Positions 5,278 to 24,392 of a DNA stretch of 64,000 nt are shown piece after piece. The DNA lies in assembly GCA_029641185.1 (NCBI GenBank), contig JAPWGK010000010.1, forward strand, positions 744,001 through 808,000, written 5' to 3'. This DNA is from Pseudofabraea citricarpa. Its lineage: Eukaryota; Ascomycota; Leotiomycetes; Helotiales; Dermateaceae. The translations under genes were made by a program, and so were the position numbers. The notes beneath the pieces were generated by a model that had not been told where the DNA came from, made no database searches, and saw only the letters and a program-made list of their open reading frames with translations. Positions within the stretch are counted from its first letter, which is position 1, and the number at the start of each line of letters is the position of its first letter.

Positions 5278-7655
5278 ATGCATCATTGTCGTCGACCATC
5301 TAAAAGTGATGACACCTGGAAACAACAACCAAAACATTGGCAACGGGCTAAGTCGAAAAACAGACGGATATACACAATTCTCGCGGTGTTTTTGTGCTAC
5401 ATAATTTGGCAATTCTTGATACCTTCATCTGATCTAGAATCTGACCGAGAATATCCAGTCCTTGGACACCAATCCCCATCAAGGAGGTCATATGAGTCGT
5501 CAAGGCAGTACCCACCGCCCCTCATCAGAGGAACAGTTCCAGCTCAGGAAATTCAACCATCGACCGACGTAGCAAAGCCTGAGGGAGAGACATTCCAAAA
5601 TGTTGTTGCTCAAAAACCAATCGCCGAGCCCAATCAGCCTGCAACAGCAAACAAAAAGCTTGAAGAAACCACAAATTCTACTCCAGAGGAAGAAGATGAC
5701 ACAGAAGAAGCTGACCTCAGGAGAATTGCCGTCTTGCCAAAGGATAAGGAAGTAGTATCAGCTGCAGACGAGTTGGCAGTACACGCTTCGGGCATCAATT
5801 CAGAATTGAACAGTGTTTTGCAAGGAAGAAATTCCACGAAATTCCCCACATACAGCGAATATGCATCACAAATCGAAAATGCCGATGGCTTACCAGATAT
5901 CATACACATGCCTCTGGAAGACACAACCAATGATGTAATGCTTGAAGGTTGGGAAGATGAGTGGTTTGCCCTGGCCAAATTCGATGCCAAGAAATGGGGG
6001 AAACTAAAAGAACCAAAGATTGATTTTATTTACACGTGTGAGCATATACTTCTAGTACAAGAATTGTAACTGACTTTTAAGGGGTAAATGGTTCGGATGT
6101 GGCTTTCCAAGACACGATATATCCCTACGAACTGAACTCCTCTCTCAATGATCCTGAAGGGCAATGGTTGAAATCACATAGATTGAATAGGTATCGTGAC
6201 TGGGATGAGCTTCGATTTTCAATTAGAAGCATTGAGAAGCACGCGAGTACATTCAGAAATAAAATTCAAATTCTGGTCAATGCTGTCGGTGATGAGACGG
6301 CCAGCAAAGCTACCATGGATAATCCTTCTCTGATCACTGGACGACAGACTCCCCTCTGGATGAAGAACAATCAAATTACTCAGGACGTTGTCCAAATTCT
6401 ATCGCAAGAAGATTTCTTCGACGACAAGGAAGCAGCATGTCTACCCACATTCAACTCCCTTACGATTGAGAACCAGATCTACAATACGAAATCGGATACA
6501 GATAGGTTCTTCGCTCTATCAGATGACATGATGCTCGGCAAACCACATTCTGCCTCGGACTTATATTCTCCTTTGTTTGGAGCAACAATAGGTTTCAAGA
6601 CGAATGGATATAACACGCGTGATCCTCCGACTGATTCTGATGCTCGGAGATTCGGCGAGAAGCCCTATCTTATCTATACCTCTTGGCTACTGAATAGACG
6701 CTTTGGAGAAAGGAAGCGGAAGGGTCAAGTTCACTTTGGGCATTCTATGTCCCGAAGTGTTACACGCGAAGCTATCAACAGTTTTCCACGACCTGCTCTA
6801 CAGAGCACATGCCAGCGTTTTCGAGGTGAAACTGGTTTCCAGCTCTACTCGTGGTATGTTGCGTTTCATTATACCATTGAGCGACATCGCGAGGCATTAC
6901 TTTGGAGTTATATTATGCTGCGATCCGATTCAGATGAGGATGGAAATTTTGATTGGGCAGAGAGACAAGCGATTATGACCGAGCTTGAGGAAGGCATGTC
7001 TCAGGAAGGGAATTCCACATTTCGCACACGTCAATACTACAAGGTTGGGCAGCTTCTAGAAGAAGCAGGCATCCCAGCACCAAAGGTTAATCTGGATACT
7101 CTATGGACGTCCCTTGATGGCCCGTCAACTATCCAGAACATCGATTGTCAAGAATTCGATGTCAATGAGTGTATTGCCCCAGGATTTTCGACGAGTAACT
7201 CCGATAAGTTCCACAAAAGTCATGTTTTTTCTACTGCATCGATTTTCGACCGGATCTCGCGCCAGCAGCCTAAGTGCGGAGATTGTCTCATCAAACTAAT
7301 TCTCAATCGCGCCGAGCAAGGATACGAACCACTTCTACCGGATAAAAATGCGCCGACCTGGATGAGAGAACTTATCATCAAGGCTTTGAAAAAGTACCAA
7401 TATACGATTATAGAGCCTGACGCACTTTTTGTTATGGTTACGGACGCAGATCAGGTGAAGAATGTACTTCTGAAGAGACTAGTGAAGGATCAGCGGCAGG
7501 TGGGCCAGCTTTGTCTTAACGACGATGTTGCGACTGAAGACGAATATGCAATTTCCCAAGTAAGAAAGTATATGATAAAGTTGCTGCGAGAAATAGCCCC
7601 AGAACCTTCCCAGTTTGAAGCTAATTTTGGAGAAAAGGGTGGATTAAAAGTGTAA
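5278..7655 (+). CDS. Stealth-family sugar-1-phosphate transferase (xylosylphosphotransferase-like)
   Basis: The predicted protein has 777 residues in exons 5278-6037 and 6082-7655. The GTGAGC...TTTTAAG intron splits the Trp codon of the Stealth CR1 motif, and splicing restores IDFIYTWVNGSD at 248-259. It is a type II membrane protein with an anchor at about 31-49 and a low-complexity stem to about 240. CR2 (SDDMML) is near 400, CR3 starts near 474 (HSMSRSVTRE), and CR4 (CLNDDV) is near 731. Residues 536-547 fit a canonical EF-hand loop (D-x-D-x-D-G-x-F-x-x-x-E). Family members include bacterial capsule hexose-1-phosphate transferases, animal GNPTAB and the Cryptococcus xylosylphosphotransferase; they transfer sugar-phosphate from a nucleotide sugar to make a phosphodiester. 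The donor here is not known. UDP-xylose is a candidate given the nearby UDP-glucose dehydrogenase. The gene is convergent with the PL8 lyase, 59 bp away. Confidence 0.85.
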
Positions 7656-7714
7656 GAAAACACGGGGAAGGCGTTGGTCGGTTAACCTATTTGATTTTCT
7701 TTGATTGTTTTCAA

Positions 7715-10237
7715 TCATCTTCTACGCTCGAATATAATAGTATAAGTCCTCCCATGACTGTTTCTAGTATCAATCTCAATATTTATCGCGCCTTTATTAG
7801 CTTCAGTAAATCTGATTTCAAGGTCTTTAAACAAGACAGTACCGATATTTTGGCTCTGAAGTATAATCTCAATCCGATATAACTTTTGTGTTGGATCTGA
7901 CAGAGCGACTGTATAATTTTGGTCCTCCATTTTAGAAAAGCCCCATGCCACCTGGCATGAAGTCATTGCTTTGACATCTCCAACCTCGCCCGCTCCCCAG
8001 AATGTCGCCATTGTAGTTTTGTTATTATGAAATGTTACAGCCTGCAATTCTGCAGTATTAGCAACAACAAAAAAATCAGAAGTTCTCGCTAATTTCTCTG
8101 TAGCAGATGCAGTGATATTTGGCAGCATTGCGTAGGCATAGCTTTCGCCCACGGGATCGACACGGTGGTTACGATATATTGTTGTGTACTCTTGAATATT
8201 CAATTCGTCAAATCCCGCATAATCTGGGTACTGATTGATATCACTCCATCTTCCGACGAGCGTCGACCGTTCAAAAGTCATGTTGCCTGAATCGAGGAAA
8301 TGGTACCCGCCCACACCGTCGAGATGGGCCCAAGATGATCGATCGTACGTTTTCTTCCACGAGGAAAATAATGAAGAGTCTGTGGCTTCACCATCAATCA
8401 CTAGTCGTGATACACCGGTCATAGATTTTCGCGCATCAATCGTGCTATGGATTTCAGTCCCATTAGTTCCATTGCAGCTTATTCCCAGAGCTAGAATTGC
8501 GTTCGCCAGGAAGAACCACGATTTCTTGGCTGAGACGGTCTTGTCATGCGAAAGGTAATCAAGGCTAGCTGCACCGAGAGTTCGCCATTGAACACCTCCC
8601 GCCCATTCGTTATAAGCTGTGCTACCATATGCGGCCAATTTCTGGGTACTCTGTCCAGCAGTGACCCCTGGAGTGTGATAAGGATCCATTGTTGAATAGT
8701 AATCGTCGAGGAAATATTCCCGGTCGTTGTCAAGATATACTTGCAGGAAGCCATCCCCTTGATAGAAGGGCCGCAAGTTTTCTGAGTTTAATGTTTCATA
8801 ACGCCCTATACGGGTCGACGACATAGCTATGGTAGCAGTCCAATGTTGCTGATGAAACACCACTCGGTCTGACATAGGAAAAATCCGAAACCCAGTGTCA
8901 TGAACAACGGCGGGGATATTTTTCTCCTGTTTGAGTCTCTGAATGCCACTTGCTATAACAATACTCGAGTCACCCATATCAACAAATGGAGCTTCTTCCT
9001 GCCATGAAAGTACTAAAGATTTGAATTCAGCTTTGTACGGCTCTGGAGCAGTTGCAATAAGCCGCAATACTGCCTGGACAAGCAAGTTTCCAGCATACGA
9101 ATCATTTTCGTCCTTGCGAGAAACATCTCTTCCTGTAAGAATAATAGTCAGCAGATGATCAAAAACCGAGGGATAACACTGACCTCGCACATTTCCCATC
9201 ATCATGCCACGAAACATGAAAGGTCCAAAACTCTCTTGTATTGATTTGAAAATGATTGACATATCGGAGCTAGATAAGGCGAAAGGGGAGTTTTGCAGAA
9301 CATAAGCTAGCTGGGACACAGCGAGAATATGAGTGAGTCCATAACCACCAGCATACGGGTAGACACGATGAGAAATATAACTCCCATCTTCGTAAAAGCC
9401 TTCACCACTGCTCACTTGAGTAAATAATGAGTTATTGCCACTCCCACTGATATCAAAAAGAGCATCATAAGCCCTTTGAAATTCTTTGCTATCTTGCATC
9501 AAGATGCTGGCACCTGGTTTTGATTAGAAATTTTCTGAGATAAGTTGGGAAGATACCATACCGATGAGTACCTGACACATATTTGCTCGATTGGACCCAA
9601 TAAGAGATCGTGAATTGAGATCTCCAAGCATTTTGGACATTGTAATGCCGTATTCATTCCTTCTCTCTGCTCCAAGCTCGTCATGTAGTATCATGCTGAT
9701 ATCTATCAATGGCTTTGAAGCGCCGATCTTGTAGTTCCACCACTACCGACCGTTAGTTCCAAAGTATAGGTAAATTATTGCCATCAACATTACATTCTCA
9801 TTTGGATTCACTATCGTCGAAGAATTATATGCTTCAGCGTTTATCAAGTCAAGTGATTGAAGAATTGTCTGGAGTACTCTGAGATCTTGATATACCGAGG
9901 TGCCGTTTACTGAATATGCTAAGGCAAGGGTTCTTAGTCTGTCATAACATTTTCGAAAATTGATGGACAAGTGAATTGGATTGAGATCCGGCCATATTTG
10001 CGAGCCCTTGGCCTGGATATTCTTCAGATGCTGCTCCGCTGTTGTAGATAGTCTTTGAATTGTATCCGAGATCTCTGGGTGATGCATATCATACTCGCCA
10101 CCTGTGATGACTGTTTTCCATCGCTGGCGAAAGCCTTCGAAATGCGCAGGCGTGCAATTGATCCTGAAATTGTGAGATGATTTCCACTTTGATTGCCTTC
10201 TGTCAAGTTGACTTGAACTAGATTGGCTGCTGCCCAT
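7715..10237 (-). CDS. polysaccharide lyase family 8 (hyaluronate/chondroitin/xanthan lyase type)
   Basis: The protein has 790 residues in four exons: 10237-9794, 9742-9562, 9513-9184 and 9132-7715. Each join restores a PL8 motif: N|WWNYKIG at 148-155, IGASILMQ at 208-215 and VRG|RDVSR at 317-324. The known catalytic set of the family is visible: Asn199 in SNRANM, His257 and Tyr266 nine residues apart in HRVYPYAGGY, and Arg320/Arg324. The helical N-terminal toroid (about 20-390) is followed by beta-sandwich domains, so the length is full. PL8 enzymes cleave uronic-acid glycans by beta-elimination. The first ATG (10237) gives MGSSQSSSSQ with no signal peptide; the frame extends upstream only through a GTG. 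Either an upstream coding exon was missed or the enzyme is not classically secreted. It sits inside the glycan cluster. Confidence 0.88.
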
Positions 10238-10871
10238 GCTCGTTGATAAAATCAGATTTTTCGTCACTATACTCTTAGTAAGTGGTCCTGTTCAGTTAAA
10301 GCTGCTCACGTGTTTACGTGGCTTGAGGAGCTCATGTCGTTGGAGGTCGGAGGCTCAATACATGCTGTTAATTTGATTTTGGGCTTGATTGAGTAGCCGA
10401 AATTTCTCTGGTGTCAGAGACGTGCAATCGGTAGTTCTCCAGCATTGAACCCCTATCTTCACGGTTTTCAGCTCTCGGCCACATTCGCGTCGCTTAAGTT
10501 TTGGCGTTCGACTATTGACTTTTAGCATCGGCTATCCCATTTAGCTGCATAACGACAGAACACGGGCTGTAAGGGGCCAGGGGAAATGGCAGGGGGGAAG
10601 CCATTGGAAAAATGAAACAAAGTGGCTTTTTGATCAGCTTCAATTAATTCCTTAATCAGCCATCTTTTAAGGCAATTTGGGACCCCTTGTAAATTATCGT
10701 CGGCATCATTTACGTGGTAAGTGAATAGCGACGCGGGATGCCATTTTAAGCGAGGCGTCTATTACGTTTTTTGTTAGGACTCAGATACATTTGTGATTGG
10801 TAAAGATAACACGAGCAGAAGCACAAAAACCTTTACAGCATTTCTATAATTCTCAAAAATCTATGCATGTA
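10238..10871. other. intergenic between the PL8 lyase and the type II GT-like gene
   Basis: About 630 bp separates the start of the lyase from the stop of the next minus-strand gene. It should hold the lyase promoter and possibly a missing 5' exon. GT donors and AG acceptors exist at about 10265-10345 on the minus strand, but every join I tried gave a stop or the wrong frame. No other ORF is supported. Confidence 0.5.
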
Positions 10872-12194
10872 TTATCTTAAATACCAATTTGCAGGAAACT
10901 TTGCTACTGCTTGTGCTGCCCACTCTCGAACATTCATGTGGTTTTGCAATACCATATTCTCAGTCCATTTTTTGACCGCTGCTTTTTTAGCATTTTTCTC
11001 TTCCTGACTCATGGCAAATACCCGCCCGACTGTATCCATTTCTGACTCTCCATCCTCCTGCAACCAAATAATGCTTTCATCTAGATACTGGTACGTGCGA
11101 AGAAGCCTCCTGTCGCCGACTAGAGGCGTTCCGGCAATTAATGCTGCGGGGACTGTGCTAGATGCCTTGGTCAGGTAATAAGATTCAAGTTTAAAAGCTG
11201 TCACCACCGCCTCGCTCTGCTTGAGTGTAGTATAAAAGTCTGTGTAATCGAGCCTTTCATCAAAAATAACATGAGTCTGGAGGTCTTTCGGAACCGTAGG
11301 GTGTTTCCCAAAACCAACCAAGTGCAAGTTTGTCCCATCAGCAGACTCATTACGATCTTCGGCAGCTTTGATGAATTTTTGAAGATGTTTGAAGACCATG
11401 GGGTAGTCTCTGCCTTTTTCGTATTCCCCTTGCAGTGCAAAACCACCTTCGCGGCCGCTCTTGCTCAATTTTTGATCAGACGCCGCTTCAAAATTGAAGA
11501 CGGGTGGGAAGACGTGCACAGGAGGGTGATGCAGCTCGTTTTTCACAACATTCCACTTCCGTCCAAATTGATCATTCCGAGCGAATTCTGCCACATGATG
11601 ACTCAGGGCTATAAAATCAATGCGGCCAGCGCGGACAAATGGTGTGAGCTGATCTATCACCAATGCCTTTTTTCTATTCTCCATCTGATCCGCGTGATGA
11701 AATACACAGAAGAAATGCGTATGGTGGTTCTCCAGCAGATGATACCAGGTGTCATTCATATGCTTCGCATCCTTCAAACATGTCGTAGAGACAACGATAT
11801 CTGGAATAGGGTATCGGGCATCTTTGCCGATTTTGCGAAATTCACCTGCGTAGACATGATCTTTTATTTCCTCGGAAAGTCCTGAATCGGCGATGACCTG
11901 CTCCATTCCGAATCGGAATCCAACTTGGTATGTAGTAATTTCAGCTTGTGGTACCTGGAGCCAGGAATCGAGGAGGGGAACGAGGACTTCATCGTGGGAC
12001 AATTGAGTGTTGATGACCGCTACACGAATCTTGCGATGGGATGAGAAAAGGTATCGATCTGCTTTATGAACGGCGGTGGTGGCATTGAATAGCAAATACT
12101 GAAGGAAGGAGAAGGTAATAACGGTGATAATGAGCGTTAGAAAATGAACATGTCGCTTTGGCAAGCAATGGGTCTTGTTGGAGGCGACAATCAT
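10872..12194 (-). CDS. putative Golgi type II membrane glycosyltransferase, GT-B-like
   Basis: This is a single exon encoding 440 residues from the ATG at 12194; the frame opens earlier only with a GTG. A short basic cytoplasmic tail is followed by a membrane anchor at about 18-38 and a lumenal domain. That domain has Rossmann-like strands (RKIRVAVINTQ near 55) and a C-terminal half with the feel of a GT-B fold: a LHLVGFG strand, a DFYTTLKQSEAVVTAF helix-strand, then TVPAALIAGTPLVGD, which resembles the donor-side loop of GT4-like enzymes. I cannot name the CAZy family. The placement between the PL8 lyase and the GT25 gene on the same strand supports a role in building the same glycan. A 204-codon frame on the opposite strand is a shadow. 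Confidence 0.55.
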   Translation of the reverse strand: MIVASNKTHCLPKRHVHFLTLIITVITFSFLQYLLFNATTAVHKADRYLFSSHRKIRVAVINTQLSHDEVLVPLLDSWLQVPQAEITTYQVGFRFGMEQVIADSGLSEEIKDHVYAGEFRKIGKDARYPIPDIVVSTTCLKDAKHMNDTWYHLLENHHTHFFCVFHHADQMENRKKALVIDQLTPFVRAGRIDFIALSHHVAEFARNDQFGRKWNVVKNELHHPPVHVFPPVFNFEAASDQKLSKSGREGGFALQGEYEKGRDYPMVFKHLQKFIKAAEDRNESADGTNLHLVGFGKHPTVPKDLQTHVIFDERLDYTDFYTTLKQSEAVVTAFKLESYYLTKASSTVPAALIAGTPLVGDRRLLRTYQYLDESIIWLQEDGESEMDTVGRVFAMSQEEKNAKKAAVKKWTENMVLQNHMNVREWAAQAVAKFPANWYLR

Positions 12195-12527
12195 GTTGAA
12201 GAAAAGAAATTTTGTAGACGCCACTCACACAGCGACTCTGAGATGTAGAATAACTTTTAAACGGTCAGACCATCACCCTTTTTTGACGGCACGAGGAATG
12301 AGGTGGCGTAGATTAGTTCAGCTTGGTGCTTTATGCTCCACTGATTGATGCGAGCTAGTGGAGGGGTATCATCAGTCGCCGCGTACAAACCGAGGACGCA
12401 GTAACCTGAGCAGCCACCAAATTCAGCCCAGATTGGCAACCCAAATCCATGGATAAGAAGTTGATCTAGAACAAGCTGGATTTGAAAGAGGATACTAGGA
12501 GTGGGTAAAGTAAAAGAGGTTTGAATT
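12195..12527. other. short intergenic spacer
   Basis: About 330 bp between two minus-strand genes of the glycan cluster, presumably the promoter and leader of the type II GT-like gene. No ORF of note. Confidence 0.5.
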
Positions 12528-13730
12528 TTAAGTCCTTAGATCTATTGCCCTTTGTAACTTTTGCCAAACCTTCTCATTTTCCATCAAGTCCTTTAAGTGT
12601 TGCCTCGCACTGTCTCTCAGCCCTCTAGGTTTGCCATTCAAGTTATTGGCACCGTTATCAGGAGTCTTGACACCCTGTCGAATATCACTGTCTGCACCAG
12701 AACCTGTGGTCCAGGATCCAAAAAGAGGCGGTACAACAGTCCATCCGGATAAATCTCCTCCCCTCATCAGATCACGAATGCTCCAATCTAGCCCTGTATC
12801 CAAACTTTTCCAACTGAGAAGATACATTAGTCTTTGTGCTCCTTTGAATGTAACTGCCAATGCAACCAATCCTATAGGCTCATAGCTGGGAAGAATAGCT
12901 CTCGATTGATCAGGCATCTGAGCTGCCTCCGTGTATTGGGAGAAGCAATACCATGGCTTTCCTTCATGGCAGTCTATATCCTTGACTGGACCAGGAGGTA
13001 ATGATGAGTCGCGGTAAGGTATGGAAATTTTGTCAAATGGTTTGGGAGCAGTGGAGATGCGAGAAACTCCAAGATGAAGTACATCCCAACCTGTCCCGTA
13101 CGGATATTTTACTACATCATTTTGATCTAGCTGGTTCATAATGAAGGAAGACTGAATGCCTTCAGAGAGGTGTTTCATTTGATTTTTGATACTGGGCTCC
13201 CTGAGGTTACAAGATAGCATTTGATTTTAAAGTTCATGGTTGAATGGAGCATACCAATCAACGTCATCTTCCAATATGAGAGCTGTCTCAATTTGATTGT
13301 CCACAATATACTTCAAAGCATCTAGATGGCTCCTCCAACTTCCCCAGTGAGCATCATCGAGCTCTCCGGCTGCTTTTCCGTATGGCTTTGCTTTTGCTGC
13401 AATATTTTCCCCTCGCACAGCTGATACCGTATGTGTAATGGTAATGTTAGAGGTAGAAGCAATCAACGATACTGCATCGCGACGATCAGTTCTTTCAGGA
13501 AGTGAAACCACAATTATGGCTCCAAAACCAAGTGTAGAATTGTCAGTGCTTGGAAGAGGAGGAGTTGGGGACTGGTAGCGATGAGTGGAAAGATGGTACA
13601 GGGTGACTATGGCCAGAACGACAGCTACACCTATGCGTGCTATGAAAGTTTTAGAAGTTGTTGCAGAATTTCTCAACATCTTGGAAGAATGCATATCGAA
13701 AAATTTCCTATCTGTTGATGGAAGTGACAT
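12528..13730 (-). CDS. glycosyltransferase family 25 (LPS-type/collagen galactosyltransferase-like) protein
   Basis: The product has 382 residues in exons 13730-13255 and 13200-12528. The intron (GTATGC donor, TTGTAAC branch, CTCAG acceptor) splits the Trp of the motif ILEDDVDW at about 152-159; splicing gives EDDVDWEPSIKNQ, the normal continuation in GT25. The anchor is at about 31-48 after a basic tail. The strand GAIIVVSLPERTDRRDAV at about 69-86 is the family N-terminal signature (hydrophobic strand, then xxRxDR). A conserved SWRSHLDALKYI helix precedes the acidic EDD metal-binding motif. GT25 enzymes add Gal or Glc in bacterial LPS and collagen glycosylation, so an inverting or retaining choice and a donor cannot be assigned here. 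It is divergent from the PLOD-type gene, 286 bp away. Confidence 0.82.
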
Positions 13731-14016
13731 TTTCTCATTAGGTGGTTACTTAGGGGTCGACAGATAAGAGCCCGATAGCCAAGAGGCCCACAAGCCAAGC
13801 CGTTCAGGGGCAACGACTAAATCCCGCCCCCTGTAAGCATTTGTGCAGCTAGGGCCGGAACACTCATCATAGGACGGTACAGTACTAGAGACTATTGTTC
13901 GACATGTGGGTTCCATCTCCGTCCAGAATGGCTAAATTGTAAGGCATTTCATCCCCCCACAAAGTTTTGGGCCCATGATTAACTTTCCCTTCATTCCTGC
14001 AGCAAGATGATAGATC
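13731..14016. promoter_or_regulatory. bidirectional promoter between GT25 and PLOD-type GT genes
   Basis: Only 286 bp separates the two divergent start codons, so shared control of the two glycosyltransferase genes is likely. No named operator was identified. Confidence 0.45.
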
Positions 14017-15888
14017 ATGGATGCAAAGGACCGTCATGACTACTTTCGCTTGCGACCCAGAAACCGCCTTGTGCGAAGTATGATATTGAATCGCAGGGCG
14101 TGTTTTGCTTTGTTCCTCGTTGGAATCTCACTAATTTTTATACCTTGGGTAAGTTTTCTTTGGTCATGGCAGGCCAACCCCCATGCTGACCTCTCTATAC
14201 AGTCTGAAAAACCACTCTCTTTGGGACCAAATTTTGCGCATCAGCATGGATCACAAGAAGAACTGAGGCTTCATCTGCTTATTCCAGCAACAAGTGCCAA
14301 TCCAAATTTCTGTCGGACAACTCTTTCTGCCGCCTTACTGGACTACCCAACTCCGGTTCTCATAAACTGGGAGGGAGAGGAAGACGCCGAGAACCCGTAC
14401 GCTTCTCACCTGGCCAAGATTGAGCATACCCTGGAGTATCTTCGTGGTCTACCCCCAAGAAATGATAAAGACTTGGTTTTGATTGTGGATGGATACGATG
14501 TGTGGTTTCAATTGCGCCCAGAAGTTCTCATTCAGCGGTACTACGCAGCCATAAAACAAAACTCCGATAGACTGGCAAAGAATTTTAATCCTGATGTGAT
14601 TGCTCAGCACGATATCAAGCAGACCGTGATTTTCGGCGCAGACAAGAAATGCTGGCCACAGAGTATGAATTATCCTGCATGCTATGCAGTCCCCGAGTCG
14701 CCTTTGCCCAAGGACTTGTTTGGAAAAAAGACAGACTCTGCTGAGCTGCACCAATTTGCTCGACCGCGATGGTTGAACTCTGGCACGGTGCTTGGCCCGG
14801 TATCAGAAGTACGGGCGATGTTTGAGGCTACTAGTCGTCGCGTTCAGGACCATTTTCATGGATTCAGTGATCAATGGTATTTTGGTGAAATATTTGGCGA
14901 TCAAGAATATCGTCGAAATTCACTCTCAAAACATCCGAGAAAGTTAAACAACGTTGTAAACGACAGCCAGCCGAAGCGAGCATCGAAACGCTCTAAAGAG
15001 CGCAATATCTTACCAAGTATTGAAGCATATCAACAAACTGAATTCCACATGGGCTTAGATTATGAAAGTTCGCTGTTTCATACAAATGCATTTGCGGAGG
15101 GCGACACGGAGTGGATCAAGTTCAATTCGACAAAGCTGACTGAGCGATTCATGAAATCCAACTACGTCAAGTTCAATTCAAAAAAGGGTTCAGGGTCGCT
15201 ATTTCCATCCGATATAATGAACTCTCGACCACCCATCTCAAGGGGTGTTATTGCAGAGGAGCTCTTTGAGGATTCAGAGCAAGGTTTCAAAGAATTATCT
15301 TACAATACGACTTGGACAGATGTTCCATTGATGGTCAACACGGCCACTGGCAGTGTACCTGTCATTATTCATCTCAACGGAAAAAAAGAAAGACTCGATG
15401 AGTGGTGGCAGGAATTGTGGTGGGCTAAGAACGGATGGGGAAGGCATCTGCTTCGCAATGGAAGTCGAGCACCGCGCGGTCCCCTGGGAACAACTATCGA
15501 TGCTCAAAGCAGCAAAACTATCACTTGGTGGAAGGGGACATATAACAGCCTTCGACGTGAGAATGGCGGTTACTGGTCGGCAAAGGGCGAGTGGTTGTAT
15601 TATAACCACCTTTGCGCCCCGCACGAGAAGGTTCTTTTTAAAGGTAAGAAGGTAGGTACACCTGAACGAGTGCAGGTTGGTTGGAAGGGTCCAAAGGAGG
15701 AGAACCCCCCAAAAGAAGAACACGCGGAAAAGAAACAAGAAACTGCGAGTGGAGCGAAAGCCGCGAAGAAAGTGGACCAAAATTCTAAGTCGTGGAATAA
15801 TGACGGTGAGAGTTCTGTTGAAGGGACGACGGCAAACAATACTTTTTCTGGTGGAAGGGTTTTCAACACAACGTCCACGGCGATATGA
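14017..15888 (+). CDS. PLOD-type (procollagen lysyl hydroxylase GT-domain-like) glycosyltransferase
   Basis: The frame encodes 623 residues, or 605 if a strong in-frame intron at 14149-14202 (GTAAGT donor, GCTGAC branch, TACAG acceptor, 54 nt) is removed. A basic tail precedes an anchor at about 28-45. The lumenal domain has the GT-A motifs of the PLOD glycosyltransferase domain: DGYDVWFQ (metal-binding DxxD) near 160, FGADKKCWP near 208, LNSGTVLGP near 253, and SDQWYFGEIFGDQEY near 285. There is no Fe/2OG hydroxylase domain, so it is a glycosyltransferase only. The C-terminal 90 residues are a Lys/Glu/Ser-rich low-complexity tail. In animals this fold glucosylates or galactosylates hydroxylysine; fungal standalone copies are uncharacterised as far as I know. 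Conserved gene order around it points to a glycan role. Confidence 0.75.
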   Translation: MDAKDRHDYFRLRPRNRLVRSMILNRRACFALFLVGISLIFIPWVSFLWSWQANPHADLSIQSEKPLSLGPNFAHQHGSQEELRLHLLIPATSANPNFCRTTLSAALLDYPTPVLINWEGEEDAENPYASHLAKIEHTLEYLRGLPPRNDKDLVLIVDGYDVWFQLRPEVLIQRYYAAIKQNSDRLAKNFNPDVIAQHDIKQTVIFGADKKCWPQSMNYPACYAVPESPLPKDLFGKKTDSAELHQFARPRWLNSGTVLGPVSEVRAMFEATSRRVQDHFHGFSDQWYFGEIFGDQEYRRNSLSKHPRKLNNVVNDSQPKRASKRSKERNILPSIEAYQQTEFHMGLDYESSLFHTNAFAEGDTEWIKFNSTKLTERFMKSNYVKFNSKKGSGSLFPSDIMNSRPPISRGVIAEELFEDSEQGFKELSYNTTWTDVPLMVNTATGSVPVIIHLNGKKERLDEWWQELWWAKNGWGRHLLRNGSRAPRGPLGTTIDAQSSKTITWWKGTYNSLRRENGGYWSAKGEWLYYNHLCAPHEKVLFKGKKVGTPERVQVGWKGPKEENPPKEEHAEKKQETASGAKAAKKVDQNSKSWNNDGESSVEGTTANNTFSGGRVFNTTSTAI

Positions 15889-16582
15889 AGCTCGTGAAAT
15901 GGCACTCAGAAAATGCAAACCCAGAAACAGTAATATAATCCCAGGAAAGGATTAAGCAAGGAAAGGGTTTTTTCCCCCACTTTACTAAATAGTGCTTTGG
16001 AGGAATGTTTTGTTCTGTTACACCCTTCTCATCGAATGTCAGATTTGTGTTTTTTACCTTGATTTCATTCAACCCCTGACCTAACTCAAGTAGAATGATA
16101 TGGAAAAGTTAATGAACGGCAAGGAACTGATCTATTATCCGAGTATCAATAGAAAAGGTTCATTAAAATCTCGCTTACTCCAAGCTTTTGTGACATCTAC
16201 CCGGTACATTTGCTCTCCACAAGTCAATTTGCATGATCCGAACTATCAATGATCGGCGAGTGAAGATCATCCGTGTCCAGCGCTCAGGGACCGCGGAGTT
16301 TGCCACGTGCCTACTTACTGTATCCTAGTACTGTGGAGTAAGAATAACAGCTCGCTTAATTTCCCATCTCGCGGGTAGTAACTTAATTTGTATTGTACCC
16401 CTGTCTACACCAAATCGAGTCATAACGCAGGAACGAAAACATGGCCTAGTACTTGTTTTGTCCCACCCAGCCTCGCACATCAAAAGATCAGCTACCAACT
16501 AGCATGCCGAGCTAGTGACCCCCCTGGATTCAGCACGCCACCGAACGCCATCGGATTCTACAACTTTTTCGCCATCCTCACT
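15889..16582. other. convergent intergenic region
   Basis: About 690 bp between the stop codons of the PLOD-type GT (plus) and the transporter (minus). It must hold two 3' ends; no gene is supported. Short frames here overlap the C-terminal coding part of the transporter on the opposite strand. Confidence 0.5.
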
Positions 16583-17781
16583 TTATTTCGGCATGATGAG
16601 GGCACTTCTCCTTTTCTCTTGCATATTCGTCCAGCTATACCAAAATACGCCAATCAGTGTAATTACCATGCCGAGCCCGTTCCAGAGCCCAATATTCAGC
16701 CTGAATAGGAAGATACCGAGTAGGATAGTAAAACACTGCTTCAGATTGGCGCAGACAGTCAAGGTGAGAGCCCCTACAGCTTTGTTGGTATTGAATGATG
16801 AGACATTCTGAGCAAAAGCCAGCAGACTGTTTACGACCACAGATGTGAGTGTTTTCTGTGACAGCAAATTTGCGCCAATAGTATTGTACTCAGCAGTAAG
16901 TTGTTTAACCTCACCCAGGAGGTATGCGCAAATAAAGCTTTGCAAAGCGGCCAGCGGTGACATTCTCAAAAGAACCTCCAAAGGCGACAATTTCAAAGAA
17001 CCAGTCATGATTCGATTGGTTGTCACAGTCTGAGACATATGGATTAGTGATGCGTGAGAATTGACAAAGACGAATTTACCTTGACGGATGCCAGAAGTAC
17101 ACCAAGTGCTGTCAAACAGCAACCGACGGGTGTGAAATAATAATCCCCGTAGGTTGCCATACCAATTCCTAGGATCATAGGCAGGATTGAAAGGTATGTA
17201 GGCATAGAATATCTCTGCCCATACACCATATAATATATCAGGACAGTAATTGCTGGGCATGTTGATCTCATGATCTGATGGAAAGGGAGTGAGACCATTG
17301 ACCTGAGCTATGTCAATGATGAATTTCAAGTATCAAGGACAAGCATACAAGGAGACATTTGAAATTGCAATGTTGACTGTGAAAAGAGTCGAGAATGCAA
17401 CGAGAACAAGATTGTCAGCATCACTTAATTCGGTGAGCTTAACATATCCTATCTTCATGAGCACAAAGCATCCTATGGATGTAAATGTGGCATGCGATGC
17501 TGTCAAAAGCCATGGATACGCGAACTGTATATTCATCAGCTTTACAGTCTGTGAAATTCAATGAGTTCGGGCCAAACCTTGCCGAGAACCAGCTTGTTGA
17601 ACGTGCTGAGGGAAAGATTAATTGAGAAGTAGATTGCCAAATGGGTGAACGTCGACTTGGAATTCATTTTCCCTCGTGAGTTGTTTGTGTATACCAGATA
17701 AGAAGTTGAGCTTCTACTCAATTTTTTACTCCGTTCAGCCTCCGAGGTAAATCGCTGGTAGTGGTTTGTTGTTCTTGGCAT
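16583..17781 (-). CDS. nucleotide-sugar / triose-phosphate-type transporter (DMT superfamily)
   Basis: The product has 349 residues in four exons: 17781-17578, 17524-17349, 17302-17080 and 17029-16583. The joins restore family motifs: NKLVLGK|FAYPWLLTA, NVSLSMVSLPFHQIMRSTCP and VKTVTTNRIMTGSLKLSPLE. About ten hydrophobic segments span residues 45-340. The signature FHQIMRSTCP and the KTVxTNRxMTG loop place it in the TPT (DUF250) branch, which includes Golgi nucleotide-sugar antiporters. Substrate is not readable from sequence; UDP-glucuronate or UDP-xylose would fit the neighbouring UDP-glucose dehydrogenase. The first intron has a weak donor (GTTTGG) but a good branch and acceptor. The alternative start at the downstream Met, before the first membrane segment, cannot be excluded. 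It is divergent from the dehydrogenase. Confidence 0.82.
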
Positions 17782-18066
17782 GGCTTTGATGCTAAATATT
17801 TTGGTACTAGTCGCTAACCCGATTCTAAATTACCAGGAACGAGAAGACGGGAGGAAAGGGGCATGGCTGAGCTAGGCCGATCGAGATGGGAGGTGAGGCG
17901 ATTGATGGGTCAAGATTCGGCATGTACTGTAGAAATTGTCAGGTACTCTGTGGTCGCAGCCTTCCACCTGGGCCAACTCCTTCCTTTTCGTGCCTTCCAT
18001 TCCCCGAAAACGGGAAAATACCACCACCATTATTATACCTTCCAACTTTGAATTTCTCATATCCCA
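17782..18066. promoter_or_regulatory. bidirectional promoter between transporter and UDP-glucose dehydrogenase
   Basis: The divergent start codons are 285 bp apart, so a shared regulatory region is likely for a sugar-nucleotide producer and a candidate carrier. A pyrimidine-rich tract near 17965-17995 may mark the dehydrogenase leader. Confidence 0.5.
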
Positions 18067-19709
18067 ATGATTGACTGCACAAGCGATATGGCTGCGTTCC
18101 AACCGTTGCCAAAAATCAGGAAGATATGTTGCATTGGCGCAGGTTATGTGGTAAGAAATCTCATTTATCAACCACAACCAGAGTATCAACATTTAACACA
18201 TACCAGGGCGGCCCAACATGCTCAGTTATTGCCAGTAAAAACCCTGAAATTAAGGTGACCATCGTAGATCTCAACCAAAGCCGAATAGATGCCTGGAAAT
18301 CAGAAGAAATCCCAATTCATGAGCCAAATCTCCTTGAGACGGTGAAAATCGGACGCGATGGCTCCGACGGTCGAGTTCCAAATCTGTTTTTCTCAACAGA
18401 TGTCGATCAGGCGATCGAGGAAGCCGATTTGATTTTTATAGCTGTTAATACGCCCACGAAGACAACTGGGTATGGAGCAAACCAAGCACTCGATCTGAGC
18501 TATGTCGAGTCGGTAGTTGAACGAATTGCCCAAGTTTGTCGCAGTGACAAGATTATAGTAGAGAAGAGCACAGTACCTTGCGGAACAGCACGTATCGTGA
18601 GCGAGATGCTCGCTAATATCAATCACCACGATATTCAGTTTGATGTTCTGTCTAATCCTGAGTTTCTTGCAGAGGGAACCGCTATCAAAAACTTGCAAGA
18701 TCCAGATCGAATTCTCATCGGCTCTGATACAACCCTGCGTGGCCTACATGCCAGAGCTGCTCTCACTGAAGTTTATACTTCTTGGGTGCCCCAGGATCGT
18801 ATCATTGGTATGAATATTTTCTCTGCTGAACTTGCAAAACTTGCAGCCAATGCTCTATTGGCACAACGAATCAGCAGCATCAACGCTCTAAGCGCAATCT
18901 GCGAAGCCACCGGTGCAGACATCGATGAAGTTGCTTTCGCAGTGGGTCTTGACACAAGAATCGGTCCTCGTATGCTGAAGGCATCAGTTGGTTTCGGAGG
19001 TTCATGCTTGAAAAAAGATGTGCTAAATCTTGCACACTTCTCTGACACGCTAGAGCTTCCGGAGATTGGAAGCTACTGGAGATCGGTGAACGATATCAAC
19101 GAAAACCAGAAAAGTCGTTTCGCAGTCCGCATCATCAGGCGATTGAACAATACCCTGACAGGTAAAAGAATAGCTCTGCTGGGTGTTGCCTTCAAGAAAG
19201 ATACGGGGGATTTGCGTGAGAGTGCTGCGATATCAATTTTAGCTTCTTTAATTGCCGAGGAAGCACAAGTCGCCATCTACGATCCTCAAGCAAAAGCCGA
19301 AGATTTATGGCCAATTCTAGAGAACGAAATGGGAAGGTCCCGAGAAACGTTTACGCGGGTATCCATCTGTTCTTCCGCATATGAGGCTTGTGATCAAGCT
19401 CATGCGGTGGTTATTGCTACGGAATGGGATGAATTCAGTAACAAGGATCCTCAAGATTTAAGACTTCATACTGAACATCTTCAAAATGAAGATAGTGAAA
19501 GTGATCAGAGTTCTTCATATTCAGTAGTCCTGACTCCCAGCTCTAGCTCAATTGATGGAAGACACCCAAACAGATTATACTGGGATCGTGTGGCAGATAT
19601 GATGAAGTATCCCCGACTTGTATTCGATGGAAGAAATATTGTGGATGAGGTCAAGTTGAGAGAATTAGGTCTGCAGGTTGAGTGTATCGGAAAGTCGAGG
19701 GTGTGGTAG
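18067..19709 (+). CDS. ugd1: UDP-glucose 6-dehydrogenase
   Basis: The enzyme has 528 residues in exons 18067-18150 and 18207-19709. The GTAAGA...ACCAG intron falls inside the NAD-binding loop, and splicing gives ICCIGAGYV|GGPTCSVIA, the family Rossmann motif at about 20-37. Further signatures are KSTVPCGTA near 150, SNPEFLAEGTA near 178, the central helix ELAKLAANALLAQRISSIN near 236, and the catalytic Cys295 in GFGGSCLKKD. The C-terminal UDP-binding domain (about 335-520) is complete, with AFKKDTGDLRESAAI. It performs the two-step NAD oxidation of UDP-glucose to UDP-glucuronate, the precursor of UDP-xylose and uronic glycans. An alternative start at the second Met (residue 8) is possible. 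Being inside a run of glycosyltransferase genes, it may be a cluster-specific paralogue rather than the housekeeping copy; the gene symbol follows common fungal usage. Confidence 0.95.
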
Positions 19710-19865
19710 TACGGAGTAGTTGGGTAAGGAGTTCATGGAGTTAGTTTGGCTTGCGAGAATTCAACCTTTAATGAATTTAAGATAAACTGTTAAATTTGTA
19801 ACAAGTGGCAACCTGATTCTATGTACAGCATCTAATTAAACATGTATTTGCAAAACTATTTTGAA

Positions 19866-21030
19866 TTACCAGGGCATAAAATCTGCTTTCGTATCCCGTG
19901 CAAATTTTTCTGGATGATCCAGCTTTGGGTCTTTTCCCCATTCCCAAGAAGATTGACAGTCTCCTGGGACAAATGCTGCTACATCCATGGGTATTATCAA
20001 CTTGATTTCTGGGCAATAGGAGTATACATGCTCTCTCAGCTCCTTGGTGCCCCAAATATTGGTGTGGAACTGATCACCACCATTACCAACGTGATAGCCC
20101 ATCGGCTCAAATTTCGTCCGCGGATCAGGTTTCCCATTCTCTTTGGCTGCCTCAATATCCTCTAACATATTGTCAGGAAGCTGAGACTCGCCACTCCAAT
20201 CTAGGGCATGCGGACGATCACCGATCTTTTTCTTGTGCTTCTTAAGGCGCTTGGTGAACCACACGTCCTCGAATTCGGAATCATCAGCCCTCTGTTCTTT
20301 TCTTAAAATCTCAACAATAGGTTTTCTTTTCCGGAGGGACAGTCCACCATTTCCTCCCATTCGCCTCTTGTTTTTCCAAGGTGCGCCGATCCAATCCCAT
20401 TCAAGAAAATCATCGATTTTCTGGTGTGCATTAGCACAGAGAATGCTGTCAGTTTGGAAAACTAGCACTGTCTCTGCTGGAGACAAGACTTCCTCCCACA
20501 ACCAGAGAGTGGTCATGAAACGTGAGATGAGCTCCTGACTTGCAATGCTAGTATTAGTTGGAATCGATGTGACTCCCACTTTGCTGCTTGAAATTTGTCG
20601 TTGAACAGCAGGCGCGTGTGTTAGAGCGGCTATAGATGCTTGAGATCCAATGAAGCGAAAAGTCCAGTCAGGTGGTAGAACCATAGTAAAGTGAAGGAAA
20701 AGTGGCACCAGGTTTGGTAACGGTCTGTCTTCGATTAGAAGAGCGACCTTGCTGCTGTTGAATACTGGTCCCATGGGAACGGTGGTCTTTGTTGGCATTG
20801 CAGGATGCATAATTGCAGAACTCGAAGATTCCGCAATCGCATGTTTGAATGTCCATATTAAAGCCAACGAAAAAACAACTAAGCTTCGAGTCAATTAGTG
20901 ATGCGCGACTGATTCAGTGAACTTAATAGGGCACTCACGAGATGATAGAGGTTAACTTAGCGACAAGAAAATCTCTAAGGAGGGAAGATAATGCTACAGA
21001 TCTCGCGGGTCCAGATCTTGCATAAGCCAT
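19866..21030 (-). CDS. DUF5672 glycosyltransferase-like type II membrane protein
   Basis: The product has 369 residues in exons 21030-20939 and 20883-19866. The first ATG lies in a short upstream exon (MAYARSGPARSVALSS). The intron has a GTGAGT donor, a CTAAT branch and a GAAG acceptor; another AG five bases on would break the frame. The join completes a membrane anchor at about 27-45. The lumenal domain matches the DUF5672 pattern: SKVALLIEDRPLPNLVPLFLH (approximate 65-85), a LVFQTDSILC acidic motif, DFLEWDWIGAPW, then the diagnostic GGNGGLSLRKRKPI, and a late GNGGDQFHTNIWG. The family is regarded as glycosyltransferase-like with a QTDS/DxD-type acidic motif, donor unknown. It starts 265 bp from the divergent acyltransferase gene. 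Confidence 0.78.
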
Positions 21031-21295
21031 GATCCTTTAAGTGAAGATTGGAAGAAAAACAACTAAATGTTGTTGATAGATGGTCAGGGGATTCAGGGGC
21101 GCATGATATGGCTTAAAGGGTTGTTCTGCTGCCGAGCCATAGCTAGCTAGGGGTCAACACGCTATTGACGCCACTCTGTAACCCCGAGAAGAAACCTGAC
21201 AAGGTCGACGAAGCCCACTCTTAGTGATTGTGGTTTGTTCCTCTTGGTTTTATCTGTTGCCTTCGGCTTCATGGTAACTACAAGCGCAAGAAATC

Positions 21296-22636
21296 ATGCT
21301 TTCAAAATCAGTTAACTTCCTGCAACAAGAGTCACCAGCCTCTACATACATACCAATGATACCATTGGTCAGTTTATCAATTTCAAGCAACCCAACGATA
21401 TACCTCAATGGCCTCAAAGGTCTTGCAGCTCTCGCGGTTACCTGCCATACGTTTTTACACTCCATCAATCAGGATTGGGATTTAGGATACGGCTTTGGGA
21501 TCCCTCTTTTCTGTGTCCAGGCTGGGTATGGACTTGCTTTCAATCTCACTCCCCATGTGCAGAAGAAATCATGGGATGAGCTCCTACACATCACTACTTC
21601 ATACCTCTTCAACCGAACACTGCAAATATTCCTTCCGGCAATATGTGCAACTTTCTTTGTGCTGATCATGGTTCGTTGGAACCTGTACGACTTCGCCCTC
21701 GCCGCAACCTTCGAGAGATCCCCAATCAAACAACAGCCAGAATTGAGTGGGCAATTGTTGGACTGGTGGAAGTCAACCATGTTCTTGATCTACCCATTTT
21801 ATGGCTCGCGGCCTCATATGGACTACATTCCAGCGCTCTGGGCCCTGCCCGTACTACTTCGTGATTCCATGATCTGCATGCTCGCCATCATAGGACTCGG
21901 AAGATGTCGACATGCGGTGAAATGGATTGCATTTGGCTATCTTTTTTGGCAAGCTTATAAAAACGACCAGCAGAACAGGTTCTCAATGTTAGGTGGAATA
22001 ATGCTAGAAAATTTTGATGCAGAATCCACACGGGACATAAAACCAAAATCACGAAGGGATCAATCCACAATTAAGGATCTGTCACAACGTATCCTAAACT
22101 ACGCAATCCTCCTTGGTGCAGTTTTTCTCATGGCCCGCAGGAGGCTCTGTTCGAGGAATCAAGATATGCCATGCACCAAAGAAGCTGGTTCTGAGTTTTG
22201 GCATCATTTTGGTGCTATACTGGCTGTTTCTTGTGTTATCAGGTCCAATGCTTTAAAATCAATACTCTCAAAGGGTCCCTTACAATACTTAGGGAACATT
22301 TCCTTTACGATCTATATATTCCAATCACCCATCATTCTCGTGGTCGGACATCCTATTCTCAGCAAAATTGTTGGTCAGGGACCCATCACTTTGTCCCTCA
22401 GCACCTTTCTGGGAGTTTTCGTCAGTCTTACATTTTCGTTCATTGCCATTTTAGGTCTATACCATATATTCTGGCGTTTTATCGATTTTCAAGTACAACA
22501 TTTGGCTGAATGGGTGGAAATTAAATGCTCAGTCGAAAACGCAGCTGAGCAATATGCGGAGCAAGAAATGGAGAGGCTTCCAAAAGGTAATTCTAAAGTC
22601 CTCAAAAGTCGTTTCTTGAATCCCGAACTTTTATGA
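21296..22636 (+). CDS. acyltransferase-3 family membrane protein, divergent copy
   Basis: This is a single exon encoding 446 residues with about nine to ten hydrophobic segments. The N-terminal signature of acyltransferase-3 enzymes is recognisable but altered: YLNGLKGLAALAVTCHTFLH at about 36-55, where the usual D-G-L-R-G becomes N-G-L-K-G; the His that is thought to be catalytic remains possible (CHTFLH). The late LGNISFTIYIFQSPII segment at about 345-360 is typical of the family. The C-terminus is a charged cytosolic-type tail. These proteins O-acetylate extracellular polysaccharides in bacteria and act on varied acceptors in fungi. The next gene is a more canonical paralogue on the same strand, 254 bp downstream, so the two may act on the same product. 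The Asp to Asn change in the motif is a reason to suspect altered or lost activity. Confidence 0.7.
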   Translation: MLSKSVNFLQQESPASTYIPMIPLVSLSISSNPTIYLNGLKGLAALAVTCHTFLHSINQDWDLGYGFGIPLFCVQAGYGLAFNLTPHVQKKSWDELLHITTSYLFNRTLQIFLPAICATFFVLIMVRWNLYDFALAATFERSPIKQQPELSGQLLDWWKSTMFLIYPFYGSRPHMDYIPALWALPVLLRDSMICMLAIIGLGRCRHAVKWIAFGYLFWQAYKNDQQNRFSMLGGIMLENFDAESTRDIKPKSRRDQSTIKDLSQRILNYAILLGAVFLMARRRLCSRNQDMPCTKEAGSEFWHHFGAILAVSCVIRSNALKSILSKGPLQYLGNISFTIYIFQSPIILVVGHPILSKIVGQGPITLSLSTFLGVFVSLTFSFIAILGLYHIFWRFIDFQVQHLAEWVEIKCSVENAAEQYAEQEMERLPKGNSKVLKSRFLNPELL

Positions 22637-22890
22637 TAATAGTTTCTGAAATTGTCTTTTGCTGTAATGTTATATTCCACTGTTAGGTGATGGTGGTATA
22701 TTTCACTCCCCTAATTGAAAGGTTAAGTGACCATTAATATTCGCTCATCAATCCCTTGTTTTCCTGTTTTAAGAACAAAGAAGAGGATATAAGTATCTGA
22801 GATAATAGCAGAATCCCATCTGAAAAAGTATACTCAAATACGTTTAATCTATCCTCAATAACCTGTCATCCCCCAAAAGACCTTAGGCTA

Positions 22891-24392
22891 ATGATTGTTC
22901 TAGCTATTAAGGAATATCCGCAGGCAGACAAAATTTTCGGCGAATATCTTGGCCTCTGTTCTGTGAGATCGGGAAAACTGAAACAAGGCTCCAAAAAGTT
23001 CTTAAAATCTCTAGGTACGTTTTGAAATGGACACTGATTTATAGGCCGTGCATACTGCTAACAAAAATAGGATGGTTCATGGTGCCGAGTTGGATTCAAG
23101 ATTGGGTTTTGGATAAGTCCAAGGAACCGACGAAAGTACATTCCACGTCATATCTAGATGGGCTCCGAGGATGGGCCTCTTTGTGTGTTTTAATCTACCA
23201 TTCCACATACGACTATCATCCTAAACAGAGTCAAGGCTATGGCTACGATCCCAATCATTCTCATCTCATACAACTTCCCGTCATACGTCTTATCTATTCG
23301 GGACCTATCATGGTATGGATTTTCTATGCTATTTCAGGATTCGCTCTATCTCTAAAGCCTCTACAATATATTCGCCAGGGTCAGTCTTCCGATAAACTGC
23401 TTCTGTCGCTCTCCTCGTCTATCTTTCGACGAATGGCAAGACTGTACCTTCCAGTCATCACTGTGACCTTTGTTGCTATGCTTGGTGTGCAAGCAGGGTG
23501 GTTTAAGGAAGCCGTTTACATCAAGTCCAAGCCGAATTTTCCAGAAGACTACAAGAAGTCGGGCGCTATGCCTCATTATTCAAGTTTATTCTATCAACTT
23601 TACGATTGGCTACGGCAATGTGAGAGCCAATTGCGAATGGCATCCGATTTTCCAAAGAGAAATGGCTACAACCCACACTCGTGGACCATTCCTATTGAGT
23701 TTAGGGGCTCAATGGTCGTATTCTCTGTTCTTCTTCTGCTCGCCAAAGCCAAGATCTGGGTCAGAATATGTTGCATTGCAGGCTTTATTTTGTATCTTTG
23801 GTGCATCGGTGAAGAAATGTCGGTGCGACTTTTCCTGGTTGGTGTATTGATCGCAGAGTCTTTTCTTCAGCAGCATTCGTTGACTAATTCTTCTAAATCT
23901 TGGAGGAAGATACTCGACTCGTATCCAATTCGCTACCTTTCTTGGCTCACTTTCCTTTTTGGGTTGTTATTGCTCTCAATGCCTTGGACACACGGAGCAG
24001 AAACTCCTGGGTATAAAGCACTGGCTCTGATAGCATCAGATATGACATGGCGTGAATCCGGTGTTCCTATTCTTATCCTGTCGATACAGGTTAACGAGAC
24101 TCAGCAACGGCTATTCAATAATTCCATCTCGCGGTATCTTGGTAAAATATCATTTGCCCTCTACCTGTGCCAATTTTTTGTCATTTACACTTTGGGAAAG
24201 ACCCTCATCCCAATATGTTTAGACATCACGGGCCAGGAGACGCTCTTGAGGTTTGAGTTAGGATTCTGGACTGGGAATCTAGTGGTGGTGATCGTGACCT
24301 TTTGGGTGGCGGATATATTTTGGCGGGCGGTGGATCTGCCCAGCGTCTCTTTTGCGCTATGGTTGGAAGAAAAATCTACAGTGATGCTGTAA
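22891..24392 (+). CDS. acyltransferase-3 family O-acyltransferase
   Basis: The product has 481 residues in exons 22891-23014 and 23071-24392. The intron has a GTACGT donor, GCTAAC branch and AATAG acceptor, and the join (KSL|GWFMVPSW) keeps the frame; without it the ORF would start only at an internal Met. The canonical signature YLDGLRGWASLCVLIYHSTYDY lies near 85-106, with Arg and His preserved, and a GPIMVWIFYAISGFALS segment follows at about 130-146. The SWTIPIEFRGSM motif near 260 and the LGKISFALYLCQFFVIY segment near 410 are typical of fungal acyltransferase-3 proteins. Ten or so membrane spans are expected. It likely transfers acetyl or another acyl group to a sugar hydroxyl in the secretory pathway. 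It is the last gene of the packed cluster. Confidence 0.8.

Follow-up and report, generated by a model that had tools for sequence, protein, structure and literature searches.

An eleven-gene candidate glycoconjugate locus in Pseudofabraea citricarpa centred on divergent genes for a Stealth-family transferase and a secreted Ser/Thr-rich protein

A 64,000-nucleotide stretch of the Pseudofabraea citricarpa genome (the window; contig JAPWGK010000010.1, positions 744,001 to 808,000) carries a group of genes for glycan-related enzymes. One of these encodes a Stealth-family sugar-1-phosphate transferase and lies head-to-head with the gene of a secreted protein rich in serine and threonine, which we call SEC. 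We propose that eleven genes of the window form a fungal glycoconjugate locus, the core of which would be Stealth together with SEC as its likely acceptor or carrier. On present evidence, the chances for and against this proposal appear to us about evenly balanced.

Recurrence of the SEC-Stealth pair and its neighbours

The genome that we examined comprises 43,985,132 bases in 43 contigs (C1-C43), the window being C2:744001-808000. A preliminary description of this DNA had recognized a cluster of ten genes at positions 5278 to 24392. The open reading frames (ORFs; stop-to-stop, at least 150 amino acids) between 5260 and 24392 were scanned with Pfam at curated cut-offs, except for two (11142-11885, plus strand; 15295-15951, minus strand) that both overlap longer ORFs on the opposite strand. 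Eight families, corresponding to nine of the ten genes, scored above cut-off, which confirms the cluster. No family was assigned to the 10872-12194 gene, to the second GT25 exon or to Stealth exon 1 taken alone. From the ORF list and the Pfam matches, the recognized genes are contiguous. The bounds proved too narrow, as the SEC gene (2656-4257) belongs to the cluster as its eleventh member.

SEC contains 29.7% serine plus threonine and 21 cysteines, and starts with an N-terminal hydrophobic stretch that we read as a signal. Two copies of SEC were found by searching the 44 Mb of the genome, one in the window and one on C39 (BLASTP 2e-33 against the window SEC), and each is head-to-head with a Stealth gene. 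On C39, SEC starts at 1516236 and the divergent Stealth ORF at 1518128. The order of genes there is SEC, Stealth, GT34, TPT, GT25 and GT8-like, none of them more than 12 kb from the start of Stealth, with Pfam scores of 27.6 bits for GT34 (cut-off 23), 97 for TPT and 34.8 for GT25.

Four Stealth loci are present in the genome (window, C1, C12 and C39). On C12, the neighbour of Stealth is one of the four UDP-glucose dehydrogenase (UGDH) loci of the genome, in divergent orientation and 0.3 kb (from gene models) to 1.2 kb (from matches) away. On C1, Stealth and a gene for a DUF7908 protein with the C-terminal tail described below stand amid housekeeping genes (PDS5, capping enzyme, Ssr4). GT25 has five loci, as counted by protein search; the Pfam genome search gave the window gene alone and missed the split gene on C39. 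Under random placement, the probability of finding these neighbours beside a Stealth gene was 8e-4 for UGDH, 5e-3 for GT25 and 4e-4 for SEC, values that are post hoc and uncorrected. Since Stealth stands with UGDH on C12 and with SEC, GT34, TPT, GT25 and the GT8-like gene on C39, a chance pile of genes is unlikely. The earlier idea of a single pathway thus gains from the recurrence of family subsets beside Stealth paralogues, although the boundary and the degrading enzyme that it included had to be revised. A few kb from the Stealth and UGDH genes of C12 (C12:2688550-2694414), a P450, an acyl-CoA:6-APA acyltransferase-like (AAT) gene and unassigned long ORFs give the neighbourhood a secondary-metabolite-like appearance.

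The pair is also found in other fungi. A protein database yielded 26 SEC homologues and 225 Stealth matches at E<=0.001, of which the best 120 were used. The closest named homologues are from Phlyctema vagabunda, with protein identities of 80% for Stealth, 74% for SEC and 83% for UGDH. SEC and Stealth bear consecutive locus tags in P. vagabunda (PVAG01_01919/01920), Coleophoma crateriformis (BP5796_10542/10543) and Chaenotheca gracillima (M4579_001096/001095). Among the matches listed, six species had both tags from one assembly; the pair is adjacent in three of them, and these are exactly the three with the tail. The P. vagabunda UGDH record lists a contig of 6,695,449, the same size as in the SEC and Stealth records.

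A further divergent pair, with about 2.2 kb between the starts and a tail reading RRGGVLRSA, was found on NYXK01000235.1 (L042), where a DXD transferase (PF04488) comes next to it. We take L042 to be fungal because of its gene structure and protein matches. It is filed as a deltaproteobacterial metagenome-assembled genome, and the fungal-type genes in the 21.6 kb examined (GH32, SEC, Stealth, DXD transferase) indicate a mislabelled or contaminated record. The other proteins of the window cluster had no match on L042 within 10 kb on each side of the pair. Two Rhodococcus loci with 25% identity were regarded as remote bacterial relatives and not considered further, and no relative was found in the viral contigs searched.

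A tree was built from 36 Stealth proteins, 32 chosen among the best 120 homologues and four from this genome. The window Stealth groups with PVAG01_01920 (support 100/100), the C39 protein with PVAG01_08559 and then with the Coleophoma copy, and the C1 protein with PVAG01_09356; the C12 protein is on a long branch of unsure place. As the adjacent SEC-Stealth pairs do not form one clade in this tree, the pairing would be either old, possibly with a single origin, or have arisen more than once.

The C-terminal tail of SEC

The window SEC ends in VRRGGLLRSPRH...DFSIKKRALLH, and the SEC proteins of paired loci carry the motif RRGG[VLIM][LIV][RK] near their C-terminal end. A more specific form, RRGG-[VLI]-[LI]-R-[SA]-P plus 3 to 27 residues, ends the window SEC, the C39 SEC and the DUF7908 protein of C1. 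The latter showed no BLASTP similarity to SEC outside the tail. A degenerate DNA pattern for the tail, in a first version that admitted only TCN/GCN at one position, matched once, on C39. The final pattern had four matches in 44 Mb versus 0.6 expected from base composition and none for the reversed pattern, a count that is descriptive, two of the cases having been known when the pattern was widened. Three of the four matches belong to genes with a divergent Stealth gene at 1.0-2.0 kb from their start (window, C39 and C1).

The DUF7908 domain has 13 listed matches in the genome, 12 of them over cut-off and two in a single gene on C3; among the genes with this domain, the tail pattern matched only those of C1 and C3. 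The C3 gene (C3:747941-749785) encodes two DUF7908 domains separated by Thr-rich repeats, followed by the tail RRGGVLRSP. In Chaenotheca, the protein that has the amino-terminal part of SEC also contains a DUF7908 domain and bears the tail, and thereby links the two types of tail-bearing proteins. Within the 26 SEC homologues, RRGG is present at most 36 residues from the C-terminal end in 13 and RSGG in one, while 12 have neither.

Many SEC homologues also end with [KR][KR]-[DN]-[FY]-[GS]-x-[KR] and PFG-like residues. Judging from the dibasic sites in these ends, a Kex2-type protease could cut the proteins and free a short C-terminal peptide. An AlphaFold model of the Phlyctema SEC, for which 18 of the 26 homologues were aligned, was too poor for use (pLDDT 43.6).

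Enzymes encoded by the cluster

The spliced window Stealth protein scored above the Pfam cut-offs for the IDxVYTWVNGSD-type CR1 (34.4 versus 27.2 bits) and CR2 (61.8 versus 39.4). CR4 remained below (20.3 versus 27.4), as did CR3 (13.7 versus 24.2), which was detected with exon 2 alone and was not listed for the spliced protein. The segments SDDM, HFGHS/HVGHS and CLNDD are kept in all four Stealth copies of the genome. The window protein also contains an EF-hand-like loop, DSDEDGNFDW (6920-6960), and a similar loop is aligned in the nine Stealth rows compared. Hydropathy indicated a hydrophobic stretch in the N-terminal region of Stealth, of the 10872-12194 protein and of the PLOD, DUF5672 and GT25 proteins, as in Golgi transferases. 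UGDH retains the segment GGSCLKKD.

All three Lyase_8 domains (N-terminal, middle and C-terminal) of the PL8 protein were over the Pfam cut-off. Residues 40-810 match PDB 1rw9 (E 2.8e-81), and the Asn, His and Tyr aligned with chondroitin AC lyase, which we take to be the catalytic residues, are retained. This nearly end-to-end match to chondroitin AC lyase supports a product that contains a uronate. A search for a signal peptide was negative: hydropathy did not exceed -0.39 over the first 100 residues of the model. Scores were also obtained for 23 alternative 5' ends; among the best 8, hydropathy peaked at 1.64 over 10 residues, in a segment off the N-terminal end. The suggestion that the glycan comes with its own degrading enzyme agrees with the domains and with the aligned Asn, His and Tyr, yet secreted self-degradation is doubtful because no signal peptide was found.

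The 10872-12194 protein had been labelled 'GT-B-like'. It matched no Pfam family (the best was a 13-bit Staygreen match under cut-off) and no PDB entry at E<=1, and a single-sequence AlphaFold model was too poor for use (pLDDT 38.9); a transferase role for this protein is a guess. No family of multi-pass transmembrane polymerizing glycosyltransferases was found by Pfam among the window ORFs scanned, in agreement with the earlier remark that a chain polymerase is lacking. This is not decisive for the type of product, since Stealth motifs also occur in bacterial polymerases that link monosaccharides through phosphodiesters (PMC5974469).

Gene models are given in Table 1. Those of the splice finder were incomplete or wrong for GT25, the transporter, UGDH and the Stealth genes of C12, C39 and C1, and ORFs, by-eye splices or tblastn pieces were used in their place.

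Table 1. Features of the proposed locus (positions in the window).
Feature	Position	Strand	Basis
SEC, secreted Ser/Thr-rich protein, 498 aa	2656..4257	-	exons 4257-3065, 3014-2961, 2905-2656; spliced model
Intergenic region common to head-to-head SEC and Stealth genes, about 1.0 kb	4258..5277	.	gene coordinates
Stealth-family sugar-1-phosphate transferase, 777 aa	5278..7655	+	exons 5278-6037, 6082-7655; Pfam CR1, CR2
PL8 polysaccharide lyase, about 816 aa	7715..10335	-	exons 10335-10310, 10238-9794, 9742-9562, 9513-7715; 5' end uncertain
Family-less protein with N-terminal hydrophobic stretch, 440 aa	10872..12194	-	hydropathy; no Pfam or PDB match
GT25-family transferase	12528..13730	-	exonic ORFs 13730-13227, 13226-12528, approximate splice; Pfam Glyco_transf_25 26.3 bits versus 24
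PLOD-type glycosyltransferase-like protein, 605 aa	14017..15888	+	exons 14017-14148, 14203-15888; Pfam GT_PLOD 46.6 bits
Nucleotide-sugar transporter (TPT), several exons	16583..17781	-	Pfam TPT 45 bits on ORF 16583-17332
UDP-glucose dehydrogenase (UGDH), 521 aa	18088..19709	+	exons 18088-18150, 18207-19709 (by-eye splice); three Pfam UGDH domains
DUF5672 protein with N-terminal hydrophobic stretch, 369 aa	19866..21030	-	exons 21030-20939, 20883-19866; Pfam 103.8 bits
Acyltransferase-3 protein, 446 aa	21296..22636	+	Pfam Acyl_transf_3 45.4 bits; gene model
Acyltransferase-3 protein, 481 aa	22891..24392	+	exons 22891-23014, 23071-24392; Pfam Acyl_transf_3 93.7 bits

At the right edge of the cluster, about 3.6 kb (24393-28025) are devoid of ORFs of at least 150 amino acids and G+C climbs from 0.42 to 0.53. 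Further to the right (38303-45637) are ordinary neighbours, encoding a GH3 protein, an FAD-dependent aromatic hydroxylase and an ERG4/ERG24 sterol reductase. A reading of the window as a secondary-metabolite cluster was dropped, no synthase family being among the Pfam matches of the cluster. Elsewhere in the genome, DUF5672 genes form groups at C42:822182-831755 (three) and C29:269386-278853 (two), possibly further transferase clusters.

Proposed pathway, alternatives and significance

The path to UDP-xylose begins with UGDH, and Xpt1 of Cryptococcus neoformans is a fungal Stealth-type enzyme. Stealth enzymes move hexose 1-phosphate onto a sugar acceptor (PMC7729866), and the XPT1 product is Golgi-resident and cited as a xylosylphosphotransferase of protein O-glycan synthesis (PMC8541085). 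Because of this activity, of the role of XPT1 and of the Ser/Thr-rich secreted partner, we propose that SEC would bear a phosphodiester-containing glycan. A phosphodiester-bearing glycan with uronate or xylose, as previously suggested, fits the Stealth and UGDH families.

In the order of steps that we envisage, UGDH would make UDP-glucuronate, to be used directly or converted to UDP-xylose by an enzyme encoded elsewhere, and the TPT transporter would supply the Golgi with a nucleotide sugar. An oligosaccharide would be assembled on O-mannosylated SEC by the GT25, PLOD, DUF5672 and 10872-12194 proteins. Stealth, presumably in the Golgi, would add one or more sugars via a phosphodiester, and the two acyltransferases may acylate the glycan. 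PL8 would cleave uronate glycan that is defective or in excess; as a signal peptide was not detected in this enzyme, it may act within the cell. The RRGG tail could direct SEC-type proteins to the pathway, as a signal for their recognition or processing. The Stealth loci of C39, C12 and L042 might each make their own glycan, because their neighbouring enzymes differ.

We considered the possibility that the locus makes an acidic secreted or capsule-like polysaccharide and is comparable to the galactosaminogalactan (GAG) cluster of Aspergillus. Stealth would then be a phosphodiester polymerase, PL8 a trimming enzyme and the acyltransferases decorating enzymes, and SEC would be a wall anchor rather than a covalent carrier. 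The bacterial polymerases with Stealth motifs mentioned above (PMC5974469) provide a precedent, and the GAG cluster pairs a sugar-nucleotide enzyme, a glycosyltransferase, a deacetylase and a hydrolase (PMC4817252), just as the window has a sugar-nucleotide enzyme, a lyase and acyltransferases. Yet, SEC recurs beside Stealth, though it would not be needed for a free polysaccharide, and the lack of a detected signal peptide in PL8 argues against extracellular trimming. We regard this explanation as rather doubtful.

Another possibility is that SEC and Stealth alone, or these two and UGDH, make up the functional unit. The part of the window from PL8 to the acyltransferases would then be a separate neighbouring cluster, devoted for instance to catabolism or to the decoration of a small molecule. 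Apart from SEC, UGDH, GT25 and TPT, no partner family of the cluster reappeared near a Stealth paralogue; for PL8 and the 10872-12194 protein there was no other match in the genome, and L042 combines only SEC, Stealth and one DXD transferase over 10 kb on each side. In contrast, UGDH is deep within the disputed part but adjoins Stealth on C12, GT25 and TPT recur on C39, and the recognized genes of the window are uninterrupted, so that such a division appears unlikely. Finally, glycosylation genes might be neighbours by chance in a gene-rich arm, with no pathway at all. A single DUF5672 neighbour could indeed be fortuitous in view of the size of this family here (about 12 other places), and TPT genes occur elsewhere too, e.g. 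about 14 kb from the C1 Stealth. The placement probabilities of 4e-4 to 5e-3 per recurrent neighbour and the recurrence of the SEC-Stealth pair in other species make this very improbable.

Several observations weigh against the glycoconjugate locus that we favour. The genome search gave no SEC match on C12, where Stealth and UGDH are together, and on C1 a tail-bearing DUF7908 protein stands in the place of SEC. Much of the set does not follow Stealth within the genome: PL8 and the 10872-12194 protein are without a second match, PLOD has one distant paralogue (C2:1084044), away from the Stealth paralogues, and none of the DUF5672 genes outside the window is beside one. The acyltransferases, in the sole comparison made, had no match in the Stealth-paralogue regions, and the GT8-like gene of C39 is under cut-off (17.1 versus 24.3 bits). 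As to the tail, the pattern was widened to AGY serine after the window and C1 codons had been inspected, and the one new match, at the C-terminal end of the two-domain DUF7908 protein, is on C3, a contig absent from the Stealth matches that the genome search listed. Furthermore, SEC and Stealth are apart (distant tags, different contigs) in Exophiala mesophila, Fonsecaea multimorphosa and Cladophialophora immunda, which we take to be Chaetothyriales, and the SEC proteins of these three lack the tail, though some models may be incomplete. As for the full gene set in another species, only SEC-Stealth adjacency was seen, together with the P. vagabunda UGDH record.

Several homologues of the window Stealth bear the name Xpt1 in public records, a type of enzyme that moves xylose-1-phosphate onto mannose in protein O-glycans. 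The activity and acceptor of the window enzyme are predicted, the likeness to Xpt1 being by name and family. No SEC-type partner or gene cluster for Xpt1 turned up in the literature searched. CAP59, CAP10, CAP64 and CAS1 are Cryptococcus capsule gene families, and the Pfam scan of the cluster ORFs listed none of them. Stealth transferases also occur among bacterial capsule-synthesis genes. The window resembles such loci, for which Stealth polymerases are described (PMC5974469), by its Stealth gene, but differs from them by being eukaryotic, by its anchored, probably Golgi-type enzymes and by the dedicated secreted protein next to Stealth.

The closest fungal analogue that we found is the five-gene GAG cluster (uge3-sph3-ega3-agd3-gtb3), in which a sugar-nucleotide enzyme, a transferase and modifying and degrading enzymes are joined (PMC4817252). 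The sugar-nucleotide enzyme of the window is UGDH instead of the epimerase of GAG; the Pfam matches of the cluster include no GAG enzyme family and no multi-pass polymerase, and comprise UGDH, Stealth, PL8 and acyltransferases, to which the secreted partner is added. A fungal PL8 has been described in Paradendryphiella salina: PsMan8A is a secreted enzyme with a 23-residue signal peptide and polymannuronate as its substrate (PMC7911691). The window protein shares its family and fungal origin but differs by the signal peptide, which was not found. No description of a fungal Stealth-centred cluster, of the SEC partner or of the RRGG tag was found in the literature searched, mostly without subscription papers.

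Stealth relatives are common in fungal records, and the literature searched gave a known role only for the Cryptococcus enzyme. A secreted protein that travels with Stealth is a concrete acceptor candidate, which makes the function directly testable. As a possible but still tentative generalization, filamentous fungi may carry cassettes akin to capsule loci, in which an old head-to-head pair of Stealth and a tail-tagged carrier would be combined with transferases, transporters and sugar-nucleotide enzymes in exchangeable sets, with a different phosphodiester glycan on each carrier and the RRGG tail as a tag for glycosylation or wall attachment. If the variable shells do make different glycans, this would represent a modular surface-glycan system in filamentous fungi, like bacterial capsule loci, and would have consequences for adhesion, host recognition and the chemistry of the wall in a class to which crop-associated fungi belong.

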